Positions 1 through 64,000 of a DNA stretch of 64,000 bases are shown here, piece after piece. Numbering within the stretch: the stretch's first letter is position 1; every line of letters starts with the position of its first letter. The DNA comes from Paramacrobiotus metropolitanus (Eukaryota > Tardigrada > Eutardigrada > Parachela > Macrobiotidae). Both the position numbers and the translations under genes were made by a program. The notes under the pieces were generated by a model. It was not told the origin of the DNA and ran no database searches. It was given only the letters and a program-made list of their open reading frames with translations. The stretch is from positions 518,839-582,838 of the forward strand of contig NW_026570315.1 of NCBI RefSeq assembly GCF_019649055.1. The letters are read 5' to 3'.

Positions 1-2
1 AA

Positions 3-14797: not shown

Positions 14798-14892
14798 TGT
14801 TATGACTCTTTTTTTGTTAACTGATACTCTTGTAATACATTTCCCAGCACGAAGCGCTAATAAAAACACTACCATTAAGCAAAAAAAAAAAT

Positions 14893-20512: not shown

Positions 20513-20584
20513 GACCTAACTCGGTCGGAACAGGATGTTAGCGTTGACATCGCATTCCCAGAAGACAGGGATCTATGACACGCG

Positions 20585-25567: not shown

Positions 25568-25702
25568 ACGACACGCCGGACGATACGCCATCCGAACTCA
25601 AGAACAAATCGACACGCACGACGACGCACCTCGATTTGTGAGCTGATATCGTACAGAGAAGCTCTTTCCGGCCGGATTTACTTCGCCCCCTACGAGGAAG
25701 GG

Positions 25703-25954
25703 ATGTCGGATGACGTGGCACCGGGCGCACGACCCTCAGCCTGGAAGCTGCGAAAACAGGTAGCCAAGGTGAAGAAGTCCCAAGCGGAACATCCGGGCCA
25801 GGAAACCAAAGAAGATACCGCGTCCCAGCGAAGTGCCTCTGGAAGCTGCAAACCAAAGGAGTCAACCTTACGACCTCATCACCGACCAAAACCCGACGAT
25901 GACGAAGAAGACTACTTCGGCGGCGAACCGCCGGTCGACGTGAATCTGGGATAA
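25703..25954 (+). CDS. Small charged ORF at the 3' end of the coding region (copy A)
   Basis: ATG at 25703, 83 residues, basic then acidic (KLRKQVAKVKKSQAEHPGQ, DDDEEDYFGGEPP). It follows the CxxC protein and may be its displaced C-terminus; copy C has a basic frame in the same place (35107-35419, NGRKRRRPTATRRGRR). It may be a separate small protein or the end of the previous one after a frameshift. No family recognised. Confidence 0.35.
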   Translation: MSDDVAPGARPSAWKLRKQVAKVKKSQAEHPGQETKEDTASQRSASGSCKPKESTLRPHHRPKPDDDEEDYFGGEPPVDVNLG

Positions 25955-31150: not shown

Positions 31151-31164
31151 ACAAATTTTTAAAA

Positions 31165-33341: not shown

Positions 33342-33489
33342 CCCGGCATAGAAGTTGCATAGGGCATAGGGGGGACGGGTTGTAAAAATTATAGGGACGT
33401 AATATCATAGGGCGTAATTATCATAGGGACCAGTCTTAGAAGTGGACTTCACCAGCATTCTGCATGTTTCATTTCTGTTAACACAGAGA
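33342..33489 (+). promoter_or_regulatory. Intergenic block with likely 3' splice site (copy C)
   Basis: Carries repeated CATAGGG/TATAGGG words (33358, 33367, 33391, 33408, 33423), then a pyrimidine-rich stretch TGTTTCATTTCTGTTAACACAG with AG at 33485-33486, four bases before ATG at 33490. The partner block in copy A is 23641-23779. Confidence 0.5.
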
Positions 33490-35419: not shown

Positions 35420-36660
35420 CCAAGGACAGAGGCAAAACCAAAGAACTCACCGCCCAGAGGCCAAATGAAAATCCTCCTAGTCAGCAGACCGGATACTCCG
35501 TGGTAAACGCCCACCGGCGCCCACAACTTAATTTTCTGGAGTTGGGCCAGGCCAACCTGATTTTTTCGTCAGAAGCCACTAATTTTTGTTAAAGCCACGG
35601 TCTCAGAGAAATTTGAATATCTGACATGGTAACTATCTCATGGCCCACGGCCAGTGAGACGGTCCAGATTCAACGAATCTTCAACTTTGGCCCGCCAATT
35701 ACCTTGGCGCGCAATCGTGGCCCGCCATCCACCATGGACCGTCGAAAAAATGACTAAGTCCATATTGGCCCGCCAAACTACGCGGCCCGCCCAAAATCGA
35801 CTAAGTCCACATCCGAGCGCCAAAGCCTGTTATACAGGACTCCCACTCCCGCGACAACCAGAAGCAAGGCCCCGTCGATACAGAAGCCCCGTATCCGGCC
35901 CAAGGCATGCCAGAGACAGAGTTTGGACCGCCCCAACGGGTTTGGTCCATCACACCACTCCGGTTATTGGACTTGGAAGATTTTTGGCCCGGGACGCATG
36001 ACCCAACTGGGGTGCACTCGAACTTAGAAATTTTTGGCCCGAGGCGCATGACCAAACCGGCTTGCAGGCCCAAACCAGTTAAAGACAGACCACCCAGACG
36101 GGATCGGTCCATTGCATCATTTTGGATTACAGGATCAAAACTCCTGTCCTGAGGCATCACCCATAAGCCTTAGCGGACCGCCCAACCGGGTTCGGTCCAT
36201 TCCACTACAGGAGCACCACTCCTGCCCAGAGGTCTTATTCATAAACCTTCTTACGGATCACCCAACTGGGATTGGTCCACCATACCAGGAAGGGGACAAA
36301 CTGTCCTTGCGAAAGCAACATTGCCTTCCATACTCCGCACAGCTGAATAACTTCACTGGACACTGTGGACATCTCTTGGAACCGTCGCCCCAGATCCACA
36401 AGACCAGGCCAATCCTATCGGACCGTTGACTAGGACGCGTGTGACTAGGACCCGCGTGGACAGAATCTGCATGTGGAAAGCCTAGTCGGAACAAGCCATT
36501 TTGTCTAGTTTTTTAACCACACCTGGTTTTTCTAGACTTATTAACCAAAGAAACTGTTGTTTTTATTTAGCCGTTAACCAAAGGAATTGGCTTTCGGCTC
36601 TAACTATGATCTTACTTTACTTTAATTCTCAATTGGAATTGTGATCTTTTTATTCCGATG
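35420..36660 (+). other. 3' non-coding region with four spaced double-stem hairpins (copy C)
   Basis: No coding frame. Four similar hairpins lie at 35925-35948, about 36087-36109, 36175-36198 and 36255-36278. Each has an outer GGWCC/GGTCC arm and an inner CCC/GGG arm with an AAC-type loop, and each is followed by a CCA(T/C) word. The last three are 70-90 bases apart. The end of the region (CCTAGTCGGAACAAGCC at 36480) matches copy A. Confidence 0.55.
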
Positions 36661-36699
36661 TTTCACATGAGCCCTATAAACTTTTTTTTTTACTTCACC

Positions 36700-37300
36700 G
36701 ACCAAAGAAGCCTCACCAACACCACACTGGACCCTCCAGCACACAAAGTGCCCTCCAGATTTCGGCCGTTCGGTGCAAGCACCGCGGGTCTGGAGACAGC
36801 GGCCCTACCGGGCAAGAGACAAAGCGGCATCCGGCCCTACCGGGTATCGGATCCTGGCACCCTACCGGGTTGGCCAAGGGCAGAGTCGGAAGGTGCTCGC
36901 AGGAGCTCCCACTCCCGCTCAGAGGCATGTCAGAGACCGCTCACTCGAGGCGGTAGACACCTCCTGTGGCTTGCTCTGTCGCCCGCACGCATATAGCCAC
37001 GCCATTCGTGCCGCTCATATAAGCTGATAACGTCAGCGTATACTTTGTTACGCTGACCAATCAGCGTTCGCTATGCACTTTTGGAGGTGTGGCCCAGCGC
37101 TCACGAGCGATGCCATGCTTTGCGGTACCAGCTGGGATCCAGCTGCAGCATTCCGCGGCATTACGTTGATTTTCACCGAGCTCGCTAGCAGCCACTTTTC
37201 ACCACAGCTTTTCCGCATTTGTTTTCTGTTGGTTTTTGTTGGTTGCTTTATTGTTATCACAATAAAGGAGATATCTTGATCCCATTTTCGCTCCCTGCTT
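36700..37300 (+). repeat. LTR-like segment of copy C (boundaries approximate)
   Basis: Shows LTR signals in order: a TATA-like CATATAAG (37016), a CCAATCAGCGTTCG box (37057) shared with the solo LTR at 41.5 kb and with copy B's LTR (ATCAGCGTTCG), and AATAAA at 37261-37266. Upstream it carries three CCCTACCGGG hairpin words (36804, 36835, 36860). The ends are not resolved. Confidence 0.5.
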
Positions 37301-38226
37301 CTTTGTCATATCTGACAAAGAAAAAATTCAATTAAGTTTAATAGTTTAATAGTTTCATCTCGGTAGCAGGTAACCCAATAACCTGCTGTGTTTTGCATAC
37401 ACAGCATGGGAATTTAAACCTGGCCGAACACAACACACGCTCATTACCAAATCCGCTACAGAAGGCATATGATACAACACAGCTCAGAATTGCAAGCATT
37501 ATTAGACTCATGCACTGGCACACTAGACAATGGCTAAGCATTGACATAAACGTGTATAAACACGCAGACTAGACGCTATAGACAACAAGATCCGTATCGT
37601 TCGGCCGTATCCGTAGTTGAATGAGGAATGGAGCGCGGGTGCTTTATCCTGATGCGACGAGCGAGTTGAACCCTGGAGGATCCGTTTATGCCCAGTCGCC
37701 GAAGAAACGTACACGCCACTCAGTAAGGTCAGCGCTGATGCCGACTAACCACGTCGCACACAGCCTTGCGGGCCATGCACTCGCAGCCTGAACTCAGAGT
37801 GGTCACCCATCCAAATCCAAACCGCGCTCGATGCAGGCTATCTTTCAAAATCCGAAGATCTATCCGTTTAGCTACACTGAGTGTGGCAAATTTTTTGTGA
37901 GCTTGTGCTGACCATAGGTCAGCAGTGGTGACTATGTCGTTTGCCAACGCCAATGCCCATGGACGGCCTACAGCATAAAAATGATTAATGTTGTAATAAT
38001 TAGGCGAACAGAAATTACGTAAAAGCAATAACTGCATTAAATAGCACAGAAAAACTACTTTAAAACAGGGGCATAGAAGTGGTAAAAAAATTGACCACTG
38101 GTCAGCAAAAAATTAAAATTTACCAAAACGCGCTTGTATGAATTTTCATAACTACTACATGTTAAAAAACACAAAAACAAGCAAAGCTAACAATATTCTT
38201 TCTCAAAACTTTCATTACGCTCCCAT

Positions 38227-48897: not shown

Positions 48898-50116
48898 AGC
48901 ATATCGTTGAGTTTTTCCTTCGACGGACCCTTTGAGACCACGGTGTAGAATTACATCCGTAACGGCCGACGTGAAGACAGGGGAGAACCAACGGTTCCTA
49001 TCCCCATCTGATCGCCGCCAGCCAGAACGGTCTGGTCTCTTCTCTCTCTCTTGCGGGCAGAAAGCCTCGGCGGACCCTCTTCCTTGCGCGTGGACGGAAC
49101 GTTCCTCGCGGAGACAACCCTCGGACGGACTTTGCCCGGGTTGATTGGCGGTTCCCGCGGATCCCCGGACAGAACGTACGGCACGGACCCTCGCGGACCC
49201 TCTCAGCCTCATCAATCGGGGTCGCCTTTGCCTTAAGTGGCACCCGCAACTATAACAGCGCGGATTCACCGGATCACCAGGCGGATTCACTCGGATTTAC
49301 CCGGTAAAAAGGGTCGATTGACCCTCGGTAAACCGTGTAGAGCCTCATAAGACCCGATATAGCCGGGCATTTTTCATTTTCACCGGACCAAAAGTAATTT
49401 GGCCGGCTAAAACTTATTTTCACCCGGATAAAACGGGCTTAAAACATCTTTTTACGGGTTAAAATAGGGTTAGCCAGCCTTACTAGGCCGGACCCTCGAG
49501 CCTCGGTGTAGACCCTCTGAGCCTCGGCTAACGACCTTTCTGAACCTTCTAAAAATTAAGGGAATAACTTTCCCCCGGCTAAATTAATTTTTGGCCGGCT
49601 AGAAAATTTTTCCTGAATTTTTCTTGATTTTTCCGAATTTTTCCATCTCGGAAATTAATTAATTCAAAAATTTAAATAATTGTGACGTCACGACGGCCGA
49701 TTTACCATACTAAAATCTGACCAATCAGGATAACGGGGAGATTCCCTATGTTATAAGTCCGTAGTGAGTCACTGTTTTTTGGAATTTTGCACGCGGCGCG
49801 CAGAATCGTGACGTAGGCAGTAATCTGCAAGACCACTTAACGGTGTGTGACGTCATAGCGGTCAGTGCTGTAGTATAGGACGTACGTAAGCTGTACCCTG
49901 TATTGACAACAGTACTGAGTTGCAAGTAGTACAAGCACACCCACACCATCACCCCACACCCCACCGGACCTCTGCCCCCCCACCGGACCCTCGGACCTTC
50001 AACAGGCAAAAAGCCTCATCAACTTCGGACAAGTCCCCAATAGGGATAGTCTGACTTCTTGGCTGAAGGGTCAACCCGGAGGCTACTTCAAGGCTCCAAT
50101 AGAGCCACCACCGAAG
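48898..50116 (+). promoter_or_regulatory. Leader of copy B with CRE, CCAAT and TATA-like elements and a possible splice donor
   Basis: No ORF. The middle contains TGACGTCA twice (49683 and 49848), CCAATCAGG (49721), TTATAAG (49751) and a weak initiator TCACTG, a promoter-like cluster downstream of the LTR. CGTACGTAAGC at 49881 carries GTAAG, a possible 5' splice site that could pair with the acceptor at 63010. Hairpins: GGGTCGATTGACCC (49310), AGGC-A5-GCCT (50004-50016), TCCC-CAATA-GGGA (50034-50046) and GGCTC-CAATA-GAGCC (50092-50106), the last ending 11 bases before the ORF1 ATG. Confidence 0.45.
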
Positions 50117-52820
50117 ATGTCCGGTCGAGAGAACCCGTATGAACGGAAGTTCGACCAAGGCTACGCCCGACGAGACAACGCAGGCGGGTACACCTTCCGC
50201 CATGCCGGCCCGGGTAGTGAGCCTCACTCGTCGGATTCCAACCGATCGAGTAAGTCCGGCAAGTCGAACCAGTCGACCAAGTCGGCCAAGGAGAAGCGGG
50301 ATGCGCGGATCCTGGCGAACGACTTCACTCAATCGCCGGAGGATAGCTTCGAGGACGCCCACGACCGGACGTTCCTCGAGCTACCACAGGCTGAACCGGA
50401 GGTTCTGCACGGCCCAATAGGTCGAGATGCAAACTCCGAGCCTGCGGCTGGACTTGTGCACCCAATAGGTGCCTCGCCAGTCTTCTTTCCGGCCATCACC
50501 CCGGACCATGGAGCCTCGAGCCCGGCGCTAAGTAGCTCCGAGGTGTCACCAGACATGGGTGACCCTGTGCATGCCCCAACAGGGCGGCATGGCTGGACCA
50601 AAGTCGAGGCAAGGCCAGATGAGCCCGAGCCAAGTGAAGGGTACGGTATCACCGACGCCGGGGGTGACCCACAAGGCGGGTTCACCGACTAAGTCCCCAC
50701 CGACCCTGGCTCAAAGCCCCAAACCAACGGGCAACAACCCAAAATCTTCGGACAACAGCCGGAAATCGACGTCGCCGGACCCGAAGCGACCCTCGGGGAC
50801 TCCGAAGGCGACCACACCGGACCCGAGGACCCTCACCGGGACTCCAACTCGGACTTCGAACTTATCGAAGCCGACCTCGGGGACTTCAAAATCTTCAACG
50901 GGAAGGTTGCAGTCGGCTGGAACCTCGAACACCGAGGCTCGAGCCTCGGACACCGAGGCTCGGACCCCCAACACCGGGGTCCGGACTCCGACCCAACAGG
51001 TTGGAACACCCAAGACCCGACCGGCAACCCCCATTTCCTCGGCCAGGAAAGCCGTTTCTCCGGTCAAATTCCGGATTTCGTCGGTTGCAACCTCCACGGG
51101 CGAGGTTGAGGGTTCGGTTACCGAGGTTAACTTAACCTCGGCTGGCGGACCGTCATCCCCGAAACCCAAAACCCCCGGCAGTGAACCCACGCCAACCCGA
51201 GCCAGCCGGATCGAAGCCTTACAGGCCGATCGGAAGTCGAAATCGGCTTCACCGAAGGTTGCAAAACCAACCTCGGACCTTCCGGCCACACCACCGATGT
51301 TTGAACCCTCGAACCTCGGGGCTGATAAGACTCCATCACCGACCGACGATGTCTTCGACGCAACCGCGTTACCCAATAAGGTGACCGAGCGTCCGGACAG
51401 TAGAAAAGGCTTCAGGTTTCCGTCACCGAAGCAATATCCAGGCTCACACATTGGAGCCTCGGACTACACACCTCGGCGGTACCTAACCAAGACCCCACCG
51501 GAGAAGATCGACAACCCACAGGTCCTCCGTCAACGGATATACGAGCTGCAAAACCAGCTCTTGGCCGGACAAAACATCGTCGAATCGACGGAGAACGTCT
51601 TGTCCCAGACGGTAGCATCGCACAAGCAGGAGCGCAAGAGGCTCACTGACGAACTCGAACGTGCGAACACCGTCATCGATGACCTTAACCAGGAGATCGA
51701 ACGGTTAGAGGCCCAGTTACAAGTAACTGAGGAGCCCTGCCGTCATGAACAAGCCGAAGTCACTAGACTCCAGGACATGCTGGAGCAGTCTCGGGCCGAA
51801 GTGGCCACCCTGCGCCAAGACTTGGAGCAGCGGTTACAGGCCCTCGGCTACTCCGAGGCTGGCTCGGCGGAACTCCACAAGATGTTCGACCGAGTGGACG
51901 AGTATCGCGAGGAGAACCACCACCTTAAGCAGGGCATTATCGGCCTGGAGGGAGAGATCGACGAGCTCAACTCGGAACTCGACTTCCTCCGGACGGCCTA
52001 CGCGAACCTCCGGGAGAACCAGAACGACCCGGAGGGTATAGCCGTAGACCTTCGGCTATGCCAGGCTCAACTTGGCCAGCAGATCCTTGCCCTCACCACC
52101 CATCTCCAGAACGAGACAGCCCGGTTCGAACAGGCTCGTACCGAGAACCTCGCAGTCATCGAGGCTCAACGAGCCCGGATCACACAGCTTGAGTCCGAGA
52201 AGACCCAGTGGGAAATGGACAAGGACCGTCTCCTGAAGTACCAACAGGAGCTCTACAACTTCGGCATCGACCTATCTAACCGGTACAACGACCTTGGTGA
52301 CAAGTACAACCAGATGTACCAGGAACGAGAAAACCTGGGCATCGAGGTCGCATGCTTGAAGGAAGAGAAGACATATCTCGAGGACTCCATGACGGAGCAA
52401 CCCCCATCCTACCGGACTACCCAAGAGCAGGATAAATGTCAACAGATTGATGACTACCTGCGCCGAGACAATCCCCTGCTGAACCCAACAGGTCAAACGG
52501 GGGCTCTCGAGAGTCAGATTTACCAGGTCGGAATGCTTAGGGCTGAACCATCGGTGGGACCCGCACCGAGGGCGCCGGCGGTACCGTCAGCCCCGGAGCC
52601 GGAGCGAAACACTTCGACGGCCACTCCCAACGCACCGACCCAGTCAACTACCACAACGACTACGGCCTACGGAGGAACATCCACAACGACGATGTTCTCA
52701 ACCGGAACAAGGCCTGTAGTATCGACTTCAACCGGACAGGACGACCCCCGAGCCTCGAACCTCCGAGGCTCGGACCCCGAAGCTTGGACCCCCGAGGCTC
52801 GAACCTCCGAGCCCCGGTAA
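50117..52820 (+). CDS. ORF1: disordered then coiled-coil protein upstream of Gag (copy B, frame change)
   Basis: ATG at 50117 gives MSGRENPYERKFDQGYARRD and a Ser/Lys/Pro-rich disordered chain that stops at 50692. The overlapping frame from 50559 to 52820 continues as Ser/Pro/Thr-rich repeats (TEARASDTEARTPNTG). It then becomes about 300 residues of heptad-rich coiled coil (VLRQRIYELQNQLLAGQNIV, ERLEAQLQVTEEP, RITQLESEKTQWEMDKDRLL) and ends in a Pro/Thr tail. A +1 shift would join both. It could be programmed frameshifting, a mutation or an assembly error. No retroelement family that I know has this protein before Gag; a particle scaffold or RNA chaperone is conceivable. Confidence 0.65.
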
Positions 52821-53081
52821 ACGGATCTGGCATGGGACTCCGACCGCCGACAAACGCTTCGGCGGGAGCCTCACAGCCTAATTCGGGGAATTCCAACCGG
52901 GACCGACAACGTTCGGGTTCCCAGAACACGTACCCGCCGAGGATCGAAGTTCAACCTGTATCGGCAGGGCAGCGCAATTGGGCTGACCCGGTACGCCCCG
53001 GATATCCGGATAACGCACCACAGCAGCCTCGGCCAGACAACCGTGACCCAATAGGTCTGGTTGGCCCCGGCGCTGTTGGCA

Positions 53082-55142
53082 ATGGACCCTTGTCAGCCTC
53101 GGCAAGGCAATATGGACCCAATAGGTCCGGTGCCCCAGGCCGACCAATATGTGGTTATACCACCGGGGATGTGGCTTGACCACAACAGAGTCCTTCAGAG
53201 GATGCCTGGGTATGTGGCACCAAACCCGCCACCGAACCAGGGGTATGGAGCGCAGAATCCTCCGCCCGGACCTGGACAGCCCCAGCCGGCACCCCCTGGT
53301 AACCCATACCCCCAACCCCAACCACAGCCGTACCCACCTCAACCCGCCCCGGCTGCGCAGAACCAGCAAGCGGCCTACCCAGTGGCCTGGAACCCTCCGG
53401 TAGCCCAACAGGCGATGCCGGCGGTCCAACACCGTCAGACCCCACCACCCGATGAGCAAGACATTGCTCAAGCCCGACAGGAAGGCTATGAAGAAGGCCG
53501 GCGCCGATACGAAGAGCGGAACAACCGGATCTTGGCCCGGAAGAATCGGGCAGAGTTGCCGAAGTTCAACGGCGACGGGGCCAAGGTGGAGGGCTGGATC
53601 ACAAAGATCCGGCGAATCTATCGCTCGGAGGCTGACGGCGTCGCAATGACGGATGTCGCCTTTATGACGGAGCTAGAGGGCGCCCTTACTGGACAAGCCC
53701 TGGAATGGTACCAGAACCAGTCAACTCTGGAACCTGAAGAAAATGGATGGACCGTCGACTACTGGCTGCAGCAATTTGCGGCCCGGTTCATGGACCCGGA
53801 CAAGCAGGTCGCGGCAGTCGCGGACATCACCACCAGGAAGTACATGCTGGGGCAAGAGACCCCCGAGCAGTACTATGACGCCATCATAAACCTCAAACAA
53901 CGAGGCAACCTCACCGACGATTTGGCGGTCTTCTACCTGCGGACGAACGTCACGGAGCCAATCCGTCGGGCAGCCCTGGACGTCCGAATGCCGAAGACGA
54001 CGCGTGAGTTCCGGGACTATGTACGGGACTTCACCCGGGGCAAGCCGATGTATCAGGTAGTTAAAGGTGGCAATTCCACCAACTACATCACCGTCAGGAC
54101 GGCGACTCCCGTTCCTGTGACCCAACCGGCTCCCGGATACATCCAACCCAACTCGCCAGGTTACCAGAACGTGCAAGCGGGGCTCCACCGACAGAGCCCT
54201 CCGGCGACACCACCCCCTCAGGCCCGTGGTCAAATCGAACAGACTTGGGCGGCAATGGCGGCGATGAACCTGAATGGAGCCCCAACAGGGACCATGGTCA
54301 CGCCGCCAGCCTATGGAAATAGCGGCCAACCGAGTCAGCCTCGGAGCCCCGGCTACGGCCAATCACAGAGCCAGGGTTACCTGGCTATGGCCAGCCCCAA
54401 CAGGGCTACAGCCAGCCTCGGAGCTCCTGGCTACGGCCAGCCCCAACAGGGCTACGGCCAGAACTCCGGCTACGGCCAACCTCAGAACCAGGGGTATGGC
54501 TTCGGAGGCGGATATGGACGCGGTGGAGCCTCACAATATGGTGGCTCCGGCGGAAGACGTGGCGGCGGGAATCGCGGCCGCGGAAACTTCGGCAACCGCG
54601 CGGGTGGAGGCGGACAGCCCCAGAACGTGCAGCGGCAGCCTCGGACACCACAGCAGGAGGCTCGCCAGCAGGCAACCTACGTCGATCGGATGGAAGCCAA
54701 GTTCTTCCAGTGGACCCAGGATGGAATATTTTCCTGTGGTCACTGCCTATGGGGCAACCACAACCAAGCGAGTTGTGGCTATGCCAACCTCCGGCTGGAA
54801 GACAATCCAAACCGGAGATGGTACCTGGACTGGAGGTACCGGTACGATAACGGATGGCCATTAGGCTCGGCGAATCAGAACTACCCGAACATCGTACCAC
54901 CCCCACGCCCCCGTCAGCAGAATGCCGGCGGATTCGGCGGCCAAGGCAGCCCGGCCAGGGAAACGGAGGGAACCCCCAGAATGGTGGTCGACCCCCATTG
55001 GCAACCCCGCCACCAGCCCAACGGCCGCAACTGCCGCCGTCCCCGGCCCCCAATAGGGGCCCGGGCGGATACCAACCGGCAGTTGGCGGGCCTGTCCCGG
55101 GTACATCCCAGGGAAACGCCTAAGGTCGATGAGCTCCGGTGA
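53082..55142 (+). CDS. gag: Gag polyprotein (copy B)
   Basis: Structural particle protein. I choose ATG 53082 (MDPCQPRQGNMDPIGPVP) because the frame is closed by a stop at 52818; an overlapping frame, 52784-53179, may join ORF1 to Gag. About 120 residues of Pro/Gln-rich matrix-like sequence precede the capsid (ELPKFNGDGAKVEGWITKIR, LTGQALEWYQNQ, WLQQFAARFMDPD, LGQETPEQYYDAI). Then follows a low-complexity Gly/Tyr/Gln region with GYGQPQ repeats and an RGG-like patch (54300-54640), then a CCHC knuckle CGHCLWGNHNQASC at 54735-54776. The stop at 55140-55142 overlaps the next ATG (55129) in a different frame. Intact over its whole length. Confidence 0.85.
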   Translation: MDPCQPRQGNMDPIGPVPQADQYVVIPPGMWLDHNRVLQRMPGYVAPNPPPNQGYGAQNPPPGPGQPQPAPPGNPYPQPQPQPYPPQPAPAAQNQQAAYPVAWNPPVAQQAMPAVQHRQTPPPDEQDIAQARQEGYEEGRRRYEERNNRILARKNRAELPKFNGDGAKVEGWITKIRRIYRSEADGVAMTDVAFMTELEGALTGQALEWYQNQSTLEPEENGWTVDYWLQQFAARFMDPDKQVAAVADITTRKYMLGQETPEQYYDAIINLKQRGNLTDDLAVFYLRTNVTEPIRRAALDVRMPKTTREFRDYVRDFTRGKPMYQVVKGGNSTNYITVRTATPVPVTQPAPGYIQPNSPGYQNVQAGLHRQSPPATPPPQARGQIEQTWAAMAAMNLNGAPTGTMVTPPAYGNSGQPSQPRSPGYGQSQSQGYLAMASPNRATASLGAPGYGQPQQGYGQNSGYGQPQNQGYGFGGGYGRGGASQYGGSGGRRGGGNRGRGNFGNRAGGGGQPQNVQRQPRTPQQEARQQATYVDRMEAKFFQWTQDGIFSCGHCLWGNHNQASCGYANLRLEDNPNRRWYLDWRYRYDNGWPLGSANQNYPNIVPPPRPRQQNAGGFGGQGSPARETEGTPRMVVDPHWQPRHQPNGRNCRRPRPPIGARADTNRQLAGLSRVHPRETPKVDELR

Positions 55143-55560
55143 CTCATTCGACCTCTGTCATCCGACGGAACCACCGGATAAGGATAACCCTACTAACCGG
55201 AATAACCCTTCGGACACAACTCGGAACCTCAACGAGGATTTAGCCTCCGCAACGGTCAGCGAGTCCGCTAGAATCTTAGCGGCGGGGACGGCAGCCCAAC
55301 TAGGCGCCGAACATCCCCGGTTCGGATACTCGGAGAATCGACCCGAACCTCGCCACGCCGAAAATGCGGCTCCCGGACCAGAACAGGTACCTGGGAGGAT
55401 CGGCCAAGGAACTTGGATCCGATCGGCAGCCGGGACACAGAACGTGCCCGGACCCCAGGCCCAGAAGGTGAAGCCGGGGATGTCGGCCGGAGAAACCGGA
55501 CCCGACCAGCCGGGACGAGAAATGTCACTAGGCTGCCCGGACGGCTCGGTGCCCAATTAG
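55129..55560 (+). CDS. Small ORF overlapping the end of Gag (copy B)
   Basis: ATG at 55129 lies 14 bases inside the end of gag, +1 frame. The start MSSGDSFDLCHPTEPPDKDN is conserved in copy A (MSTGDSFDLQHPTEPQDKDN at 2101), at DNA level too. The rest is Glu/Pro/Gly-rich without motifs. In copy A the same segment is in frame with Gag, so it is either the leading part of Pro-Pol reached by frameshift or a re-initiated small protein. Function unknown. Confidence 0.6.
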   Translation: MSSGDSFDLCHPTEPPDKDNPTNRNNPSDTTRNLNEDLASATVSESARILAAGTAAQLGAEHPRFGYSENRPEPRHAENAAPGPEQVPGRIGQGTWIRSAAGTQNVPGPQAQKVKPGMSAGETGPDQPGREMSLGCPDGSVPN

Positions 55561-55650
55561 GCATTACGAGCCACGGGCTAAGCGGAGAATCGGGACGCCG
55601 ACCCGCAACCTCGCAGGACGTCAGAATGACGCCTGAACCGTCCTTGGTAG

Positions 55651-56613
55651 GCCAACCAGGTAGACGGCCGGAGGTTTCCGACCGACGAAGTAACGGAGTA
55701 CTTCGAAGACTGGGAAGCAGTACCTTTGGAGGCACAGGTACCCGCCTACTGTCTGCAGCAGGAAGCGGACCTCTTCCAGCGACAACCGGCACGAACTGTA
55801 ACCGGATCGCGCACGTTCTTCAACATGCATTATAACCTCTCAACCCTACGAGAAGGTCAACCATCCATGGAAGAACGGATAGCAAGCCGGATATACCCGG
55901 TGGAAACCGCCGAATCGTTAATGGACGGAGTAGCTAACCGTCCGGAGGCGAGTCACTCGGTTATGGAAGTTCCATCCGGGCTACCAGGCTTACAAGCCCC
56001 GGCAGAACGACTAAGTCCACACCGACCCTCGGAGGTCAACCCACAAGACGGAGTAGACCTACCGAGGCGGGACAGAATCTCATCACCGCCGCGCGTAGAC
56101 ACCAATAGTGTCCCCGGCGGATCAACGACAACCCTAATTCCGGTCGAAGTGACCATCCGAGAAGTAACGATTCAACCGTTACAGTCCACCGAACGACCGA
56201 AGGTGGTCCGGGCATGGACACATGAAGTTCAAATTGGACCGGTAACAACCACGGCCATGTTGGACACCGGAGCCGAAACATCCCTAATAGAGGAGCGTTT
56301 CTGCCGGGCCAACAATCTTAAACTCGAATCCCTGGGGTACTTCACCAAAATACGCGGTGTTGGCGGACAAATCGCCTTCATGGTGACCCATTGCTGTACC
56401 GTACCGGTAACCTTGCAAGGATTCACCAGTCCCCATACCTTCCACGTCCAACCCAACGACTCGGACGTTCCTGTACTTCTTGGATGCGACTACTTGCATT
56501 CCAAGTTTGTTTTCATCCGGGCGCCAACGACCCCCAACGAGGGTCAGCGGAACCCATCTTCGGGTGTAGTAGCCTATCCCGATACCAGAGGCATCGGGCA
56601 CGGCAGCGAATGA
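55651..56613 (+). CDS. pol: Aspartic protease ORF (copy B)
   Basis: The frame is open from a stop at 55648-55650 to TGA 56611-56613. The first ATG (55828) lies after conserved residues (EYFEDWEAVPLEAQVP), so entry by frameshift from the overlapping frame 55413-55835 is more likely than initiation. The retropepsin core is intact: AMLDTGAETSLIEERF (DTG at 56263-56271), the flap-like RGVGGQIAF, and VPVLLGCDYLHSKF. It should process Gag and Pol. After the domain a PDTRGIG.G peptide ends the frame; the same DNA word recurs at 56780. Confidence 0.85.
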   Translation, partial: ANQVDGRRFPTDEVTEYFEDWEAVPLEAQVPAYCLQQEADLFQRQPARTVTGSRTFFNMHYNLSTLREGQPSMEERIASRIYPVETAESLMDGVANRPEASHSVMEVPSGLPGLQAPAERLSPHRPSEVNPQDGVDLPRRDRISSPPRVDTNSVPGGSTTTLIPVEVTIREVTIQPLQSTERPKVVRAWTHEVQIGPVTTTAMLDTGAETSLIEERFCRANNLKLESLGYFTKIRGVGGQIAFMVTHCCTVPVTLQGFTSPHTFHVQPNDSDVPVLLGCDYLHSKFVFIRAPTTPNEGQRNPSSGVVAYPDTRGIGHGSE

Positions 56614-56641
56614 GGCTCGGATAAGTCGGCTTGATCACCCG

Positions 56642-57295
56642 ATGAACCCCGGACCCCCGGTCTGCCCGCAATGCTCGGACACCGAACGAAGCCTCGTAAC
56701 GGAGCTGCAGATCCATAACGCCATCGAACAATACTTGGCGAAAGTACGGACGACCCGATTGGAACCAGTCCGAGGGATACTAAAGTCTATCCCGATACCA
56801 GAGGCATCGGCCTCTGGTATACTTAACCAAAGGTACCGAACCTGGTTTTCCGGCATTCGACACCTCCTTGAAACCCGGACGGTCGGCATAAGACTCGCAC
56901 TTGATCGAGTCGGTGCAAGGACGGATGATCAGATCCGAGCCGCAAGGGAGGAATGCCAGGAGGTAATCAACCTAACCGAAGCCCTAGAAGAGGAAATCAT
57001 CGAATGGGAAGAAGAGCGGATCGTACTCCACGCACAATTTGTGGAACATCAGCTCCCCATACCGGCGCTACTGGAGATCCAGTCCCATGAACTGGGCCGA
57101 CGCCTGATGTGGCACTTCCGGGACCCTTACCACTTCGGTACCCTGGATACTGCCTCCTTTTGGAGTCGATACGGCGAAGACACCCGCATAACTAGGGTCG
57201 TGCCGGACTCCGAACCTCCGATCGAGCCTTGTAACTGGCACCAGGCCAAGAAAGTAATAGCTGAGGCTGTGCACCCACAAAACGGGGCCGCCTAG
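56642..57295 (+). CDS. Linker ORF between protease and acidic region (copy B)
   Basis: ATG at 56642 gives MNPGPPVCPQCSDTERSLVT with one CxxC pair, then a helical, acidic protein of 217 residues (VINLTEALEEEIIEWEEERI). Copy A has the same protein in pieces (3590-4180, CRDCRDTNRILLEELALHNV; FWQRYGENTSITR against FWSRYGEDTRITR). It carries the peptide KSIPIPEASA that recurs at the end of the protease ORF. No family recognised. Ty3 elements lack a separate ORF here, so it is part of this lineage's enlarged Pol. Confidence 0.55.
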   Translation: MNPGPPVCPQCSDTERSLVTELQIHNAIEQYLAKVRTTRLEPVRGILKSIPIPEASASGILNQRYRTWFSGIRHLLETRTVGIRLALDRVGARTDDQIRAAREECQEVINLTEALEEEIIEWEEERIVLHAQFVEHQLPIPALLEIQSHELGRRLMWHFRDPYHFGTLDTASFWSRYGEDTRITRVVPDSEPPIEPCNWHQAKKVIAEAVHPQNGAA

Positions 57296-57330
57296 CTAAT
57301 ACACGGGCACAAGCCCCGGATCAAGAATAT

Positions 57331-58299
57331 ATGGCCCTGGAATGCCCGATCTGCCACGAAAACAATGGAGCGATCGTCCAAGCCCTCAGAACTCGGAACG
57401 AAGAAGTCTGGGAGCATGGTAGGCCACCATCCCCCGGACCTCCTGAACCGGGAAGGTGGGAAGGACCGACTCAGCAGACCCCAATTAGGGTTACTGACGG
57501 TCTATTTGGACCATCCGCCGGAACAGCGGAGGAAGGCGAAGCCGACGAATTTGGAGATTGGGACTCGGAAGCCTCGGATGTACAGAGCACAAGTGACTCA
57601 CCGGACACTGACTCCGATAATGAGCCATCCGACCCTTCAGACAACAACTCATCGGATACTTCCGATGACGACGACGATAATGATATCGGCTTCGACCCTT
57701 CGGTTCAATGGGTAGGAATCGATACACCCCCGGACGAACCCCCAAAAGGTGGATCGTCCGGCAACGAACCTTCAAAGGAAGCCCAGCAACCCCAGAACGG
57801 AGGCTCGGGCCAACAACGGGCTGAGTTAACCGCAATTACGGTTTCTCACCCGGCTGACAGCCCAGTAACCTCGGCTACGTCTAGCGATACGGGCCTGGAA
57901 CAGGACCCTAACACCTCCGAAGCTGAATCCTCGGAAGCCAGCCCCACGTACGACGTCCGTGCGGCGGGACAACGGGTATCTCAGACCGACGACGAACAGA
58001 TTGCCCAACAGGCGACATTCGTCGGAGGTAACCCGGCTGAACCCGACAAAAATACAAGTCCAGACGGAGCCTCGGCTAAACCGAAGGCAGCCTCGGTACG
58101 ACAGACTAAGTCCGAGAAGACCGTCTATAACCCATGGAAACGGGTACGGAGGCCGAAGCCAATAGCTACAGGCCCAACCGTCAATCGTCTTCAGCTCCAT
58201 ACCGAGGATAAGGACGAAGACCGACAGCCCGTGTTCGTTGAGAACAAGTGTACCTTTACCACCCTTCTCAACTTGTGCCGTACTGGTGCGAACCCTTAA
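57331..58299 (+). CDS. Acidic disordered ORF between protease and RT (copy B)
   Basis: ATG at 57331 gives MALECPICHENNGAIVQALR (one CxxC pair; copy A RCAIFKDNIDGVIRAIQ aligns). A long Asp/Ser-rich tract follows (SDTSDDDDDNDIGFDPS) and then a Pro/Ser-rich region ending in a basic patch (NPWKRVRRPKPIATGP). The last 60 bases overlap the RT frame in +1. Most of this ORF is absent from copy A, where the sequence jumps from about 57.4 kb to 58.86 kb equivalents. It may be a spacer or chaperone-like region; no enzyme is visible. Confidence 0.55.
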   Translation: MALECPICHENNGAIVQALRTRNEEVWEHGRPPSPGPPEPGRWEGPTQQTPIRVTDGLFGPSAGTAEEGEADEFGDWDSEASDVQSTSDSPDTDSDNEPSDPSDNNSSDTSDDDDDNDIGFDPSVQWVGIDTPPDEPPKGGSSGNEPSKEAQQPQNGGSGQQRAELTAITVSHPADSPVTSATSSDTGLEQDPNTSEAESSEASPTYDVRAAGQRVSQTDDEQIAQQATFVGGNPAEPDKNTSPDGASAKPKAASVRQTKSEKTVYNPWKRVRRPKPIATGPTVNRLQLHTEDKDEDRQPVFVENKCTFTTLLNLCRTGANP

Positions 58300-58303
58300 G
58301 AGC

Positions 58304-61300
58304 ATGGCCCCTCACCGGGAGATCCATTTCGAATCTTTCCGGCGGAAGCACTCCGGAGTTCGGCCGATCGAAGACACCATTGAGATCCGACCAACTTGCG
58401 ATACCGCATGGATCAAGATCCAGAACGCGACCGAGTACAACCAGGTACTCCGAAGGGGTGCGAAGATCGGATACATGCACTACAGCGACACTTACGGGTT
58501 CGAACCCGACAATGAAGGGATTGAATGGGAAATCCCGATGGGAGTAGCCCGGGTCTCACAACATGGAGACCGGCCATACAGCTTACCGAGGACGACACAA
58601 TATGACGCCACTACGGTAAGGACCCAACAGAAGGTCCAGCTACTACCCAGGGCTATCGTCGAAGTTACGGTAACCCTCGACATAGAAGTCGACCCCGCTA
58701 AGAACAAGTACCTGATGTACCTCGGCTCGGAAGAAGCCTTAGCGGAAGGTATCGAGATGAAGGATGGTCCGACCCCACATGACGGGAAGAAGTTCACCAT
58801 CCTCGTGGCCAACCACACTAATAAGGACATAACCATCCGGAAAGGAACCCCAATGGGTCGAGTCGAGCCGTACGAACATATGACGGACGACCAAAAGGCC
58901 CGGGTCCGACTTACCCAAGAAGGTGACGAAGACCCGGCAACCGTTGAAGAACAAAAGAAAGCCATCAACTCCATGAAGCTCGGCGAAAACTTAACCGATG
59001 AGCAGCGACAAGTTCTACGGGACATCGCGTGGGAGTATCGGCTTGTCTTTCCAACCTCAAACGACCCTACGGTGACGTCAAGGAGTCACCCACGTCATCG
59101 ACGTCCAAGGTGCAAAGCCTATAAAGATGAACCCAACTAGAACTAGTTGGAAGGGTCGTGAATTCATCTCCAAACACGTCCAAGAGATGCTGGACCAAGG
59201 AGTGATCGAACCCTCCGACGCAGCATGGAGCTTCCCGTGGTCTTGGCAGCCAAGAAAACCCGGACGGCTCCTGTCGGAACCAGGTTCTGCATCAACTACA
59301 TTAAGTTGAATGCAGTAACCAAGAAGAACAACTACCCTCTTCCGAACCCGGACGAACTACTGGACAAGTGCGCCGGGATGGAATATTACGGCAAGGTAGA
59401 TTGCCAATCCGGTTTTTGGCAGATCCCAATGGACGAAGCCTCGAAGGACATGACAACCTTCGTTACGCCAGAAGGCATGTACAGGTTTAACCGGATGCCG
59501 TTCGGAGTCTGTAACGGACCCGCAACCTTCCAGATGCATGTCGATAAGATAACTGCAAAAGCCCGCAAGAAAGGTGTTTTTGCGTACATCGATGACATCA
59601 TCTTCTTCGGCCGGACCTTCGAAGAATTCAAGGAAGCCTTCCGAGCCACCCTGGACTGCCTACTTGAGGCCGGGTTCACTATCAAACCCTCGAAGTGCGA
59701 GGTTGGAACGGATAAGTTACCCTTCCTCGGACATGTCCTCAGCAAAGCCGGAGTCCAGACCGACGACGAAAAGGTAGCGGCTATTGCGCAACACCAACCC
59801 CCGCGAACAGAACGCCAATTGCGGTCGTTCCTCGGGTTGGCCAACTACTACCGGAAGTTCATTCGCAACTATGCCCAACGGACATCGAAGATGTATGAAC
59901 TCCTGCGGAAGACTAACTCCATCCGGACAGATTGGACGGACGACCATACAGCGGAGTTCAACGGCATCAAAGAGGCTCTAACCACAGCCCCGGTACTCGC
60001 AAAGTTCGACCCGACCAAGAAGACGGTAATCGAATGCGATGCCAGTGGAGCCGGACTTGGCGCGGTGTTGTCACAAGAAGACCACCCCGTAGCATTTGCC
60101 AGCCGAGTTCTCCATGGAGCCGAGAAGAACTACGGAGTCACCGAATGGGAATGCCTAGCCGTAGTTTGGGCCGTCCAGAAGTTTAAACACTTCATTGACC
60201 ACGGACCCTTCACCGTCAGAACGGATCACCGAGCCTTACAGAACCTGATGCGCTGTGAGTCCAATAGACCCGGCATCAACCCCCGGTTAACACGGTGGGC
60301 TTTGGCTCTGCAAGGCAAGGACATCACCATCGAGTACAAACCTGGAGTTTTCTGCGACAATGCGGATGCCCTGTCTCGGTGGCCCCTTGAACGACCCGAC
60401 GATAATGATCCCCATGAAGAATTGGACCAGGTACCCAACTTTGAGGACTTCAAAGATGAGATCAAAATAAGGTCTCTCCGGGTACAAAGACATGAAATCA
60501 AGGAAAAGAGCCGAAGACATCCGGACCTCATACTCGAGCCCGGAGGCTGGACGGACGAGGCTAAAATAAGGTCTCTCCGAGTGGCAGCTGAATGGAGGCA
60601 GACCACAAATATGCGTCGCCCCGTTCCAAAAGCAACTCCGCTGCCCGGATGTAAGGTCATCTCGGACTGGAACGACCTGTCCACCCCATATGTACGGGTA
60701 ATCAACGTAGTCGTACCGGACGACCCGGGCTCACAAGGCGAGTCGAGGGTCGGAACCGCAAAGGTACGGACTACCGAGGTTAATGGACCGGAGGCTCCGG
60801 GTTCACAAGGCGAACCCGAGGACGAAGAAGAAAAGCCGATGGAGTCCAACAAGGAGTTACGCAGACTGCAACTCCGGGACCCTCACCTCCGGAAGAAGAT
60901 CGATGAGCTGGAAAACCAGGACCAGCTCGACCATAAATCCCCATTGCTGGAACATTACCAGATGAGCGGAGGCCTATTGTACCGGCTGACCACTCACAAC
61001 ACCAAGTTGGAACGACGGTTCGTGGTCCCGCTCTTCATGCAAAAAGGCATCATCCGAGCACTTCACGACGGAAAGACCGGTAACCACTTCGGCCGCGTGA
61101 AGACATTGGAGACAGCGAAGCTTTGGTACTACTGGGACCGGATGCTATCCGATGTCCACGACTACGTGGATAACTGCCCCCGGTGTACCTTGGTGAACAA
61201 GCCTCGGACCAAACCACCCGGTAAACTCCAGAAGATGGAGGTCGGTGAACCATGGTTCCGAATCTACGCGGACTTTAAAGGACCCCTACCTCGGACTTAG
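58304..61300 (+). CDS. pol: Reverse transcriptase-RNase H and integrase zinc module (copy B)
   Basis: ATG 58304 opens the pre-RT domain usual in Ty3 Pol (VTLDIEVDPAKNKYLMYLGS, KDITIRKGTPMGRVEPYE). Three single-base deletions between about 59065 and 59240 shift and then restore the frame. The rest is intact. RT has KVDCQSGFWQIPMDE and YIDDIIFFG (YIDD at 59585-59596). RNase H has ECDASGAGLGAVLSQ, EWECLAVVWAVQKF, RTDHRALQNL and DNADALSRW. A linker with two KIRSLRV repeats precedes the integrase HHCC module (HDGKTGNHFGRVKT ... CPRCTLVNK). TAG at 61298-61300 interrupts just after YADFKGPLPRT, where copy A has a sense codon. Confidence 0.9.
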
Positions 61301-62176
61301 TCAAAAGGCTACCAGTACATCGCGGTCGTTACCGACCAGTTCACCAAGTTCACCATAGCCCGAGCGACCAAGACTAACTCGGCAAAGGAGTTCGAAAAGT
61401 TCTTCGTGGAGGATGTCGTTCTAAAATACGGCATGCCGACCCACCTTCACACCGACCAAGGATCCCACTTCACGGCTAAGACCTTCGCCAAAGTGGCCAG
61501 GATCTTCGGGATCGAGCATACCTTCGGAACAGCCTACCACCCAGAGGGTCAAGGCCAAGTCGAACGTTCCATGCAGACGATCTGGGATGGAATTCGGAAG
61601 GAATGCAACGCCAAGGATGGTCACCGGTGGCACCGGAACCTGCCGTACGTAGTATGCGGAATTAACCGAGCCAATCATGCAACCACCGGGTTCTCACCCT
61701 ACTACATGCTGTACGGACGTGAGATGACCATACCCCAGGACGTCATCACCGGAACCAACGCACCGGAACACTACACCGACAAGGAACAATACATCAGAAG
61801 GATGAAGGAACGGCTCCAGAGGGCTCACGACATCGCGAAGACGAACATCGACGAAGCCTTCGAGAAAGCAGCCGAACTCTATAACAAGAAGAAATCCGTA
61901 CCGGACTTCCAGAAGAGAGACCTCGTCCTGGTAGAGTATCCCAATAAGGATCCTACCAGGAAGGAACGGTACGATGGAGTATGGACGGTACTCAACTATA
62001 AAGGACCCAACAACCTTTGGCTCCGCAACGTCGAAACCGGGAAGGAAGATGTTGTCGCCGTGGATAGATGCAAACATCATCCAAGCAACAAGCGTCGGCG
62101 GATCACCCGATCTTACGGCCAGAAGAAAGCTGAGGTAACCCTGGTAACAACCTTGCAACGGTGCCGTACCCCATGA
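61301..62176 (+). CDS. pol: Integrase catalytic core and C-terminal domain (copy B)
   Basis: Same frame as RT, after the single TAG. DDE acids: Asp in YADF (61271-61273, before the stop), Asp in HTDQGSHF (61454-61456) and Glu in GQGQVERSM (61562-61564). FSPYYMLYGREMTIPQ and the C-terminal KRDLVLVEYPNKDP ... ERYDGVWTVLNYKGPNNLWL (GPY/F-like) follow, then VVAVDRCKHHPSNKRRRITR. It ends at 62176 after a frame change. If the TAG is read through or is an error, RT to integrase is one polyprotein. Confidence 0.9.
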   Translation, partial: SKGYQYIAVVTDQFTKFTIARATKTNSAKEFEKFFVEDVVLKYGMPTHLHTDQGSHFTAKTFAKVARIFGIEHTFGTAYHPEGQGQVERSMQTIWDGIRKECNAKDGHRWHRNLPYVVCGINRANHATTGFSPYYMLYGREMTIPQDVITGTNAPEHYTDKEQYIRRMKERLQRAHDIAKTNIDEAFEKAAELYNKKKSVPDFQKRDLVLVEYPNKDPTRKERYDGVWTVLNYKGPNNLWLRNVETGKEDVVAVDRCKHHPSNKRRRITRSYGQKKAEVTLVTTLQRCRTP

Positions 62177-62849
62177 GGGTCAGCCTGCTCGCAATACCCG
62201 GCCCGAAAGGCTAACTCCAGCCGAAGAGAAGCCGAAGGAACCGGCCAAGGAGTTCTCAGAAACTGGACTTAACGTCGGTTCAGGACCCCAATAAGGGTCC
62301 GTCCGACAAACCAAGTCCAGAGGAACCCCCAAACTAAAAGGAGAAACGTGGCCGACCGAGGAAGAAGCCTCCGTCGGACTTCGAGACACCAGCCCTGCAG
62401 GAATTGCAGAAGCAGGCTGTGATAGAGGATGAACCTGAGGCTGTCCTGAGAAAGTCCCATGACTTAGCCGGATCATCCGAGGCTACCCTGAGAAGTCGGT
62501 GGACTTAGCCGCGAAAACCTGAGGCTACCTTAACCAAGCCTAAGGAGCCTAAGGCACCGAAGGAGAAGCCGGTAAAAGCGAAGAAACCGGTGAAGAAGCG
62601 ACCTGACACACCGGTCCTGCAACTTCAACCGATAAGACGGTTGAACCCCGGCTCCGGAAGCGGAAGTATGGGACGGTCAAGAAGCCTAAGTTAACGGCTC
62701 AGGAGGTACTCGAAGAAGCTCAAGTGGCCGAAGACGAAGCACACAAGGATATCCTCGACAGGATTGCTGAAGGACGGGCAGAACCGGTCAAATCGACCAA
62801 ACCCACAAAGAAGCCCAAAACACCAAAACCCACCACACCACAAACATAG
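62177..62849 (+). pseudogene. pol: AT-hook, Lys/Pro-rich integrase tail (copy B, frameshifted)
   Basis: In shifted frames the segment carries EKRGRPRKKPPSDFETPALQ followed by ELQKQAVIEDEPE, the same AT-hook block as copy A (KKKRGRPRKKPPTDFKTPAL). A Lys-rich stretch (KEKPVKAKKPVKKRPDTPVL) and the conserved end EDEAHKDILDRIAEGRAEP (copy A: EDEAHKEILERISEGRADS) follow, then TAG at 62847-62849. A GGACCC-CAATAA-GGGTCC hairpin lies at 62283-62300. The decay is by small indels only. Confidence 0.65.
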
Positions 62850-63023
62850 GGCCATAGTTAACCTAGAATAAGTCAGGGCTTAGCTAGGACATAGTTAAGA
62901 ATGGACCTTTGGTGTCGGAATGGGACCTCTTCAGTTGTGCATGGAATCTTCAGTTGAACTTATTTGGCCTTATCAGAATGCTAACGAGCCGTATCTCCTT
63001 TATCCCAATAGCCTCTCATAACG
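62850..63023 (+). promoter_or_regulatory. Conserved intergenic block ending in a likely 3' splice site (copy B)
   Basis: 62903-62960 (GGACCTTTGGTGTCGGAAT ... CTCTTCAGTTG ... TCTTCAGTTGAAC) matches copy A 8697-8755 far better than surrounding DNA. Then GCTAACG (62980-62986, branch-point-like), a pyrimidine-rich TCTCCTTTATCCC and AG at 63010-63011, 12 bases before ATG 63024. See the copy A block at 8640-8813. Confidence 0.55.
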
Positions 63024-64000
63024 ATGTCTGACCGACGACGAGACCTCTCATCGAGCGGATCGAACAGCAGCCGACGCGACAACCGACGATCTCAGCCGTA
63101 CCCTGCACGACCGATCGGGCTCGAGCTGAAACGCGTTCGGCCACCCAAACCCCAATCCCACAGGTAACAAATCATGCGAACGTAGCGGCAGATTCTTTGG
63201 CAGGTTTAACGGTCGGGTCACGGATGGTCACTCAACCCTGGACGATCCCCTCCAGACCTTGCCACCGGGCACTATGCTCGACGAAACTGGACTTTCGGTG
63301 AATGTGAGCGCGGCCACCGGTCAGAACGTACCGGCAGTACCGATCGACCCAATAGGTCAGATCCGCCCGCCACTTCTACCGGGACCATTCATCCCCGACC
63401 AGTCATGCCACCGACGCTACCATACATCCTGATTACGGTAACGAGCATCCAGCCGGCCCCAATAGGGCCGCTGATGACTCAAGCTGGATGAATCCTATGC
63501 CGAACCAAATGTTCGCCATGTTCACCCAATGGTGCAACCAGATGGGTATGAACCAGCCACAAGGCGGCGGGTCAACCTCTGATGGGATACCCCATAGTTA
63601 CTGGACCCACCCAGCTTCCGCAGCAGCCGACTTTTACCGGCGGCGCCACGACAGGACGGCACAAATATGCCTCCGGTGGTATCAGCGACGGCTCGGCCGA
63701 ACGTCAACGGACACCGTTCACTCGATACTACGAGGACGGAACGAAGGCCTTTTCGTTCCATATGCTGAAAAGACCGAAGCCTCCGACATCATCGGCGGAG
63801 GCAGCCCGGCTCAACCGACAGCGGAACCTCGACGGCTGGACCTTCCACAGCCAGACTTCGGCAACCGCAATTACGGTTGAACTGATTCACGCATCTTCGG
63901 CTGGATCGCGAAGGCAGATCCGACCTCGGAAGAACTCACACTGGGTCTTATGGAAGCTGAGAGTGAATGGACTCTCGTCCAGCGCAAGATAGAAGCTCTC
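63024..64000 (+). CDS. Ser/Arg-rich ORF and start of the accessory region (copy B, runs off window)
   Basis: ATG 63024 gives MSDRRRDLSSSGSNSSRRDN, as in copy A. A frame change near 63110 leads to SATQTPIPQVTNHANVAADS followed by LAGLTVGS, which aligns with copy A on both sides of its MITE. Further on, frames change (63488-63880 and 63582-63992), with Met/Gln/Gly-rich and then charged sequence; the true frame is uncertain. Hairpins GACC-CAATA-GGTC (63346-63358) and CGGCCC-CAATA-GGGCCG (63454-63470) lie here. The rest of the gene is outside the window. Confidence 0.5.

Follow-up and report, generated by a model that had tools for sequence, protein, structure and literature searches.

The window analysed here comprises 64,000 nucleotides of the tardigrade Paramacrobiotus metropolitanus (assembly GCF_019649055.1, contig NW_026570315.1, positions 518,839 to 582,838 of the forward strand) and contains parts of three related giant retrotransposons, designated copy A, copy B and the third element. 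The three subfamilies to which these elements belong were shown to carry many short hairpins, located in 5', coding and 3' regions of the coding strand, and each subfamily has a loop class of its own. The stem sequence was shown to be free, diverging like the flanks, but pairing has been preserved, in part through compensatory changes. The elements lie in the window as follows:

1..31156, + strand: copy A, the second giant element, loop class ACANA; its 5' end is beyond the window
32200..37317, + strand: third element, 3' part, loop class YAMC, with a long terminal repeat (LTR)-like end at 36923-37317
49150..64000, + strand: copy B, giant Ty3/gypsy element, loop class CAAYA/CAAYWA; 5' limit approximate, truncated by the contig end

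An initial annotation of copy B had described hairpins in which a loop CAATA, CAACA or CAATAA is closed by stems of different sequence. All 16 of the hairpins it named were present in the sequence where it had placed them, and its estimate of about 20 was matched by 18 perfect hairpins (stem of at least 4 base pairs, window 49200-64000) and two more, at 50988 and 51368, with one G.T pair in each stem; the observation of fixed-loop, variable-stem hairpins in B was confirmed as real. The loop set held for the most part, but position 57478 has CAATTA, and the class in B is accordingly given here as CAAYA or CAAYWA. The hairpins of the window are listed below, together with some of the forms found in L048, a relative 78% identical to B:

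50034, + strand: TCCC-CAATA-GGGA, B, in the 5' cluster (50034..50585)
50092, + strand: GGCTC-CAATA-GAGCC, B, 5' cluster
50458, + strand: GCACC-CAATA-GGTGC, B, 5' cluster
50573, + strand: GCCC-CAACA-GGGC, B, 5' cluster
50988 and 51368, + strand: the G.T-containing hairpins, B, downstream of the 5' cluster
53045..53057, + strand: GACC-CAATA-GGTC, B
53114..53128, + strand: GGACC-CAATA-GGTCC, B; in L048 CCGGGCC-CAATA-GGCCCGG (double change)
54393..54453, + strand: two AGCCC-CAACA-GGGCT hairpins, at 54393 and 54439, B, in a GYGQPQQ coding repeat
55045..55061, + strand: GGCCCC-CAATA-GGGGCC, B; in L048 GGCTCC-CAGTA-GGAGTC
55550, + strand: TGCC-CAATTA-GGCA, B
56098, + strand: GACAC-CAATA-GTGTC, B; broken in L048
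57478, + strand: ACCC-CAATTA-GGGT, B
57828 (ends 57843), + strand: AACCG-CAATTA-CGGTT, B; loop CAAATA in L048
61938, + strand: ATCC-CAATAA-GGAT, B; hairpin absent from two distant elements
62283, + strand: GGACCC-CAATAA-GGGTCC, B
63346, + strand: GACC-CAATA-GGTC, B
63454, + strand: CGGCCC-CAATA-GGGCCG, B
63862..63879, + strand: CAACCG-CAATTA-CGGTTG, B
16777, 17374, 18588, 19592, 23590, 25959, 26163, 26634, 26728, 26864 and 28077 (16777..28093), + strand: ACANA hairpins with a stem of at least 5 base pairs, copy A
4263, 8396 and 24253, + strand: ACANA hairpins with a 4-base-pair stem, copy A
32634-36870, + strand: 13 YAMC hairpins with a stem of at least 4 base pairs, third element

The hairpin at 53045 is identical in at least L003, L004, L005, L006, L007 and L047, has one G.T pair in L001 and is lost in L002. 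That at 53114 has 24 exact copies genome-wide (169.8 Mb searched) compared to 0 for the reversed control. The hairpins at 54393 and 54439 are not independent, because they lie in one short coding repeat; the latter reads AACCC-CAACA-GGGTT in L048. Within the group 61938..63879, orthologous copies were compared at 61938 only.

Perfect stems at CAAYA on the plus strand of window 50000-64000 were at least 4 base pairs long at 14 of 51 sites, at least 5 at 9 and at least 6 at 3, compared to dinucleotide-shuffle means of 0.175, 0.045 and 0.01, respectively; none of 200 shuffles reached the observed numbers. There was no CAAYA hairpin among the 7 sites on the minus strand of B, nor on either strand in the remaining window. 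Perfect stems of at least 6 base pairs with loops of 3-8 bases were, however, approximately 2-3 times more frequent than in dinucleotide shuffles throughout the window, outside the giant elements too. Since this excess of hairpins with all loops is found everywhere, shuffles alone overstate the effect, and each loop was therefore also measured against the remaining loops within its element. On this basis the CAAYA/CAAYWA sites of B with a stem of at least 5 base pairs (11/76) occur at 73 times the rate of B's other loops (Fisher p = 3e-17).

Synonymous-codon shuffles (300 per element), in which codons were permuted inside each open reading frame (ORF) such that protein and codon usage were kept, gave a mean of 0.34 hairpins for the seven ORFs of B (9 observed), 1.3 for the relative C69, of loop class ACANA (31 observed), and 2.1 for the relative C27, of loop class YAMC (25 observed), with 0/300 shuffles reaching the observed number in each case. 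The hairpins vanish under this shuffling, and thus neither composition nor protein accounts for them. The loop motif itself was also in excess over these shuffles (178 against 150 in C69, 55 against 37 in B and 461 against 384 in C27). The starts of the 9 ORF hairpins of B fall 2, 4 and 3 in the three codon phases; for the 31 of C69 the counts in phases 0, 1 and 2 are 19, 5 and 7, a bias towards phase 0, the motif itself being even over the phases.

The initial annotation had overlooked both the subfamily-specific nature of the loop and two further elements in the same window with loops of their own. A search of all loops identified a second enriched loop in copy A and a third shared by window 32-37 kb and C27. 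When sites with a stem of at least 5 base pairs were expressed as a fraction of all motif sites on the coding strand, CAAYA/CAAYWA gave 6/38 in L047 and 6/50 in L048 in addition to the 11/76 in B, ACANA gave 11/151 in copy A, 25/231 in C69 and 4/64 in L046, and YAMC gave 16/636 in C27, 11/450 in C51 and 4/116 in window 32.2-37.3 kb; these counts are in part in-sample, CAAYA having been taken from the initial annotation and CAAYWA, ACANA and YAMC defined on elements that are also counted. Less dependent checks are provided by L048 and, for ACANA, by C69 after the discovery in copy A; L046, L047 and C51 are closer relatives (89-97%). The off-diagonal cells of this loop-by-element table were 0 in 11 of 18 cases and 1 in the other 7, and the minus strand gave 0 apart from YAMC in B (2/169). 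Relative to the remaining loops of each element, CAAYA/CAAYWA and ACANA were enriched 41- to 100-fold.

All three motifs gave 0 throughout the control DNA, which consisted of window 9.4-14.9 kb (approximately 1.5 kb of it belonging to copy A, the large ORF of which extends from approximately 8.8 to 10.9 kb), window 37.3-49 kb (with one match, of 34 bases, to the compared giant elements) and two arbitrary genome stretches (16 kb, with no such match). Three other Ty3/gypsy elements, L053, L054 and L055, with reverse transcriptases 38%, 67% and 35% identical to that of B, likewise gave 0 for all three motifs and had no enriched loop of their own. The hairpin trait is therefore missing even in a moderately close relative, L054 (C1:850501-860500), within the 10 kb examined, and this element could indicate the point at which the trait was gained or lost. 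In C69, 38 hairpins (stem of at least 4 base pairs) are distributed over 30 kb, with six inside 1.1 kb near the 5' end followed by none for 3.9 kb, a stretch which makes up most of gag. In several hairpins of C69 (L040-L042) a purine-purine mismatch closes the ACANA loop, so that the perfect stem carries a loop of seven bases, AACAGAA for example.

The stems which the initial annotation called covarying had been compared between different sites, which is not covariation, but covariation does exist at orthologous sites. In a pooled count of orthologous segments with 65-88% local identity, 36 of 73 sites were usable (77 segments, 60 gapped matches dropped), as were 169 of 361 sites of control hairpins (380 segments, 92 gapped matches dropped). 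Compensatory changes accounted for 32 of 127 changed pairs compared to 62 of 710 in control hairpins (odds ratio 3.5), and for 32 of 132 compared to 45 of 409 when no identity limits were applied. Both stem sides are changed between B and L048 at 53114, 54439 and 55045, and at a site in C27 and C51 a closing C-G pair with loop TACC is exchanged for T-A with loop CACC. Most changes between orthologs concern one pair or one base each, in a stepwise manner, and a few sites are gapped or lost. Two interpretations had been offered in the initial annotation. That the structure is what is maintained was supported on both of the tests which the annotation had set for its refutation: dinucleotide and codon/protein shuffles give no such hairpins and compensation at orthologous sites exceeds that in control hairpins, with some sites lost uncompensated. 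A process copying a flank in inverted form around the fixed loop was not supported, given the predominance of single-pair and single-base differences over rewritten arms.

At 26163 in copy A, where 13 sequences (11 of them distinct) were compared, pairing holds in 97.4% of cells, both sides have changed in two pairs and covariation scores 0.306 compared to 0.207 in shuffles (0/500 reach), although two of five measures were not above shuffles (both-side changes, 156/500; further pair types, 500/500). The hairpin at 28077 (17 sequences) is a weaker case: its score is 0.179 compared to 0.114 in shuffles (3/500 reach), its outermost pair is broken in 9 of the 17 sequences and slid versions of it score 0.145 and 0.152. 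At 25959 one copy group has GATCGAGTTCC-CACATT-GGAACTCGATC and another GATCAGGTTCC-CACATT-GGAACCTGATC, two pairs being exchanged. Across the pentaloops (CAAYA and ACANA), positions 1 to 5 differed in 3, 3, 10, 25 and 11 of 67 segments (4%, 4%, 15%, 37% and 16%), compared to per-site differences of 16.9% for stems and 18.6% for flanks; conservation is clear at the first two positions, and position 4 is free.

Predicted pairing probability in a 145-base context was 0.90 for 69 motif hairpins and 0.57 for 330 control hairpins; the difference was present in every stem-length class, the motif stems also being richer in G+C (0.62-0.68 compared to 0.51-0.54). Values for the antisense strand were nearly equal to these (0.86 motif, 0.53 control).

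We consider it about an even chance that the hairpins are dispersed recognition sites to which a protein of the element, most likely the Gag nucleocapsid, binds for selective packaging. An element-encoded protein would read the loop on its paired stem, and the reader is most likely element-encoded because the loop is specific to the subfamily while the host is shared. The first candidate would be the nucleocapsid module of Gag, in which the CCHC knuckle varies in step with the three loop classes. With many weak sites along a genomic RNA of 25-30 kb, multivalent binding of Gag could coat, select and package the element's own RNA among co-resident relatives. More tentatively, the subfamilies may possess private loop codes, in which dozens of hairpins from end to end are read only by their own Gag, permitting sorting of self from non-self RNA, with loop size and sequence switchable and the stems drifting. 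The candidate reader in B is located as follows:

53490..54959, + strand: Gag region of B, with a capsid-like part (53490-54089) and a conserved module containing one CCHC knuckle, CGHCLWGNHNQASC (54681-54959)

Of 10 sources scanned, 8 contain the CCHC motif; the remaining two loci stop short of its position. The knuckle patterns of the three loop classes are CGHC/CPHC..WGNHNQASC, CRHCMFNNHD..RC and CNHCLWGNHPTEGC, and the individual variants sort with the classes (CGHCLWGNHNQASC/CPHCMWGNHNQASC; CRHCMFNNHDGARC/CRHCMFNNHDESRC; CNHCLWGNHPTEGC). The capsid-like part gave weak DUF4939 matches only and a helical model of low confidence (predicted local distance difference test, pLDDT, 61); the structure models, at pLDDT 61 and 65, were of low confidence and were not used. 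Among other proteins that might act as readers, C69 has two ORFs 3' of the integrase, one of approximately 3300 codons (L041:3698 to L042:3594, across two pieces) and one of 717 codons (L042:4004-6157), neither of which had Pfam matches. In the host gene model P0121 the beginning of the former is connected to the latter over approximately 10 kb, which suggests a 5' exon spliced to a distant 3' exon. No Pfam RNA-binding domain was found in the element ORFs scanned; two ORFs had no match in the PDB at E up to 1 and a third had one weak match (E 0.88). There were no Rfam matches above the gathering score in the window or in L040-L045.

Retroviral psi stem-loops have a G-rich loop of the GGNG type which is bound by nucleocapsid. 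The enriched loops here are unlike these, as the only possible G in CAAYA/CAAYWA, ACANA and YAMC is the N of ACANA. A closer parallel is the coat protein of satellite tobacco necrosis virus (STNV), for which PMC3593212 reports a preference for AXXA in loops of 4-6 bases, assembly indifferent to stem sequence and up to approximately 30 genome sites; the dispersed packaging signal model is reviewed in PMC6281560, and RGAG loops have been described as dispersed packaging signals in hepatitis B virus (HBV). The tardigrade hairpins resemble signals of the STNV type (also MS2 and HBV) in that many stem-loops with a common loop motif are found along the genome and stem sequence is free while pairing is kept (28077 being weaker), but differ in that the carrier is a clade of giant LTR retrotransposons, the stems are perfect and covarying, and sister subfamilies have different loops. 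By analogy they may work like dispersed packaging signals, with putative recognition by a capsid or Gag protein.

As in Ty3/gypsy elements (Metaviridae), Gag has a single CCHC knuckle and is followed by protease, reverse transcriptase, RNase H and integrase. In yeast, Ty3 Gag nucleocapsid, with one CCHC finger, is required for packaging of genomic RNA, and the cis sequences lie at the RNA ends (PMC4974528), whereas the tardigrade hairpins are found along the whole element. Planarian Burro is likewise gypsy-like, larger than 20 kb and equipped with huge extra ORFs; dispersed hairpins are not mentioned in the portion of the Burro report available (PMC6431247), and the Burro domains MATH, BIR, ankyrin and BCL2 were absent from six C69 ORFs scanned at E up to 0.05. 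No retroelement with a comparable hairpin system was found among the titles and abstract openings listed, for the most part 20 per list at most, from open-licence literature on retroelement hairpins.

Several results weigh against recognition by Gag of maintained RNA hairpins. Selection on sense RNA would be expected to tolerate G.U above A.C, but no preference for G.U was observed in one-mismatch stems (8 G.U and 14 A.C; control 81 and 136), in orthologs (27 and 44; control 137 and 222) or at the first broken pair (16 and 43; control 74 and 157). The usual mark of sense-RNA selection is thus missing; the copies may be decaying by transitions, the reader may need Watson-Crick stems, or complementary DNA may be the working molecule. 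The copies share ancestry, so the p-values for compensation are too small, orthologs were usable at just 36 of the 73 sites, and some sites, such as 56098 in L048, are lost without compensation. Pentaloop positions 3 and 5 (10 and 11 of 67) are close to the flank rate, the tetraloop, with differences of 2, 1, 3 and 1 in 8 segments, is not clearly conserved, and one copy group at 25959 has the loop CACATT or CACACT, outside the ACANA class. YAMC shows the weaker enrichment (17- to 24-fold). To establish that loop and knuckle co-evolve would take more than three loop classes, and other element proteins differ too. Among the known systems, dispersed signals in STNV-1 were not supported in vivo (PMC6475782), and the internal region of yeast Ty3 (nucleotides 429-4979) is dispensable in trans (PMC4974528).

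The main rival to packaging by Gag is that another element protein, similar to Rev or to CERV of Cer1, reads the hairpins in the nucleus and exports or protects the very long unspliced RNA. Cer1 of Caenorhabditis elegans, also an LTR element with an extra protein, requires CERV for export of its unspliced RNA, and the available text of PMC10309623 does not mention repeated RNA hairpins. The long orphan ORFs without Pfam matches, and the splicing suggested by the gene model that links the start of the large ORF to the 717-amino-acid ORF, are in keeping with such a protein. Known export elements, however, are usually localised structures rather than dozens of sites, and an RNA-binding domain was not recognised in these ORFs. 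We regard export as rather unlikely. A constant loop on a free stem is typical of cellular stem-loop readers, and a host RNA-binding protein or pathway might recognise the loops, with the elements exploiting or evading it; this appears improbable given that three related elements in a single host have three loops and that loop hairpins are lacking from the three other Ty3/gypsy elements and the 16 kb of arbitrary stretches from the same host.

It is more improbable still that the hairpins are generated and mended by a mutational process of reverse transcription, either snap-back copying or one that perfects imperfect palindromes, with the loop at the turning point of the enzyme. The stems are perfect Watson-Crick, the reverse transcriptases differ among subfamilies, and A.C and G.T mismatches are tolerated equally, as would be predicted for DNA. 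Against this, single-pair substitutions predominate over block rewriting of one arm, two loop positions vary below the flank rate and folding of the hairpins is more reliable than that of controls of equal length, though the hairpin stems are G+C-richer. Chance, base composition, codon use or protein repeats can be given almost no weight, despite the two B hairpins in a coding repeat and the general 2-3-fold excess of hairpins over dinucleotide shuffles, as the loop-by-subfamily table is near-diagonal and the controls are 0; chance and composition were rejected by the dinucleotide shuffles, and this reading as a whole by the synonymous-codon shuffles (0/300 in three elements).

Dispersed packaging signals in RNA genomes are disputed, with in vitro STNV data in favour (PMC3593212) and an in vivo study of STNV-1 not (PMC6475782). 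The evidence presented here is evolutionary and internally controlled, comprising one animal, three related elements with three loops and free, covarying stems, and three Ty3/gypsy elements without them. Three loop classes in one host constitute a natural swap experiment for dispersed recognition, and packaging by Gag, if true, would show how co-resident retroelements avoid packaging one another.

From its sequence, copy B is a member of a clade of giant Ty3/gypsy elements of P. metropolitanus. Its enzymatic domains were identified using Pfam:

55726..62176, + strand: protease, reverse transcriptase, RNase H and integrase of B, in several frames

These follow the Ty3 order, with PF00077/PF13975, PF00078, PF17917 and PF17921 above cut-off and PF00665 slightly under its cut-off. 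No LTR pair was found for B, which is cut where the contig and the window end together; its leader stretch had at least 41 matches (40 of 224 candidates scored), never twice within one element. For C69, which spans nearly all of the 30 kb examined as judged from matches to B and A, no LTR pair was found within those 30 kb. The C27 relative has LTRs of 398 bp (L043:1096-1492 and L045:5381-5778) which are 99.75% identical and approximately 24.7 kb apart, and these near-identical repeats suggest that this element moved recently. One element ORF is 98% identical to LOC129596996 of P. metropolitanus. Searches with the 717-amino-acid ORF and with Gag returned only P. metropolitanus proteins among approximately 8000 candidates scored each, while the reverse transcriptase had matches 80-100% identical among 104 scored of 1694 candidates.

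Copy A is interrupted at approximately 10.9-15 kb and 28.5-30.3 kb, the first of these stretches containing an ORF for a reverse transcriptase of a different kind (RVT_1, window 12435-13433). No transfer RNA genes were found in the window. On the minus strand, window 46125-46745 holds a 206-amino-acid ORF whose translation resembles, by eye, a retroelement protease region. A strong excess of A over T was observed on the coding strand of the giant elements in window 1-28000 and 50000-64000 (AT skew mostly +0.2 to +0.35), while the skew is near 0 across much of window 36-50 kb.

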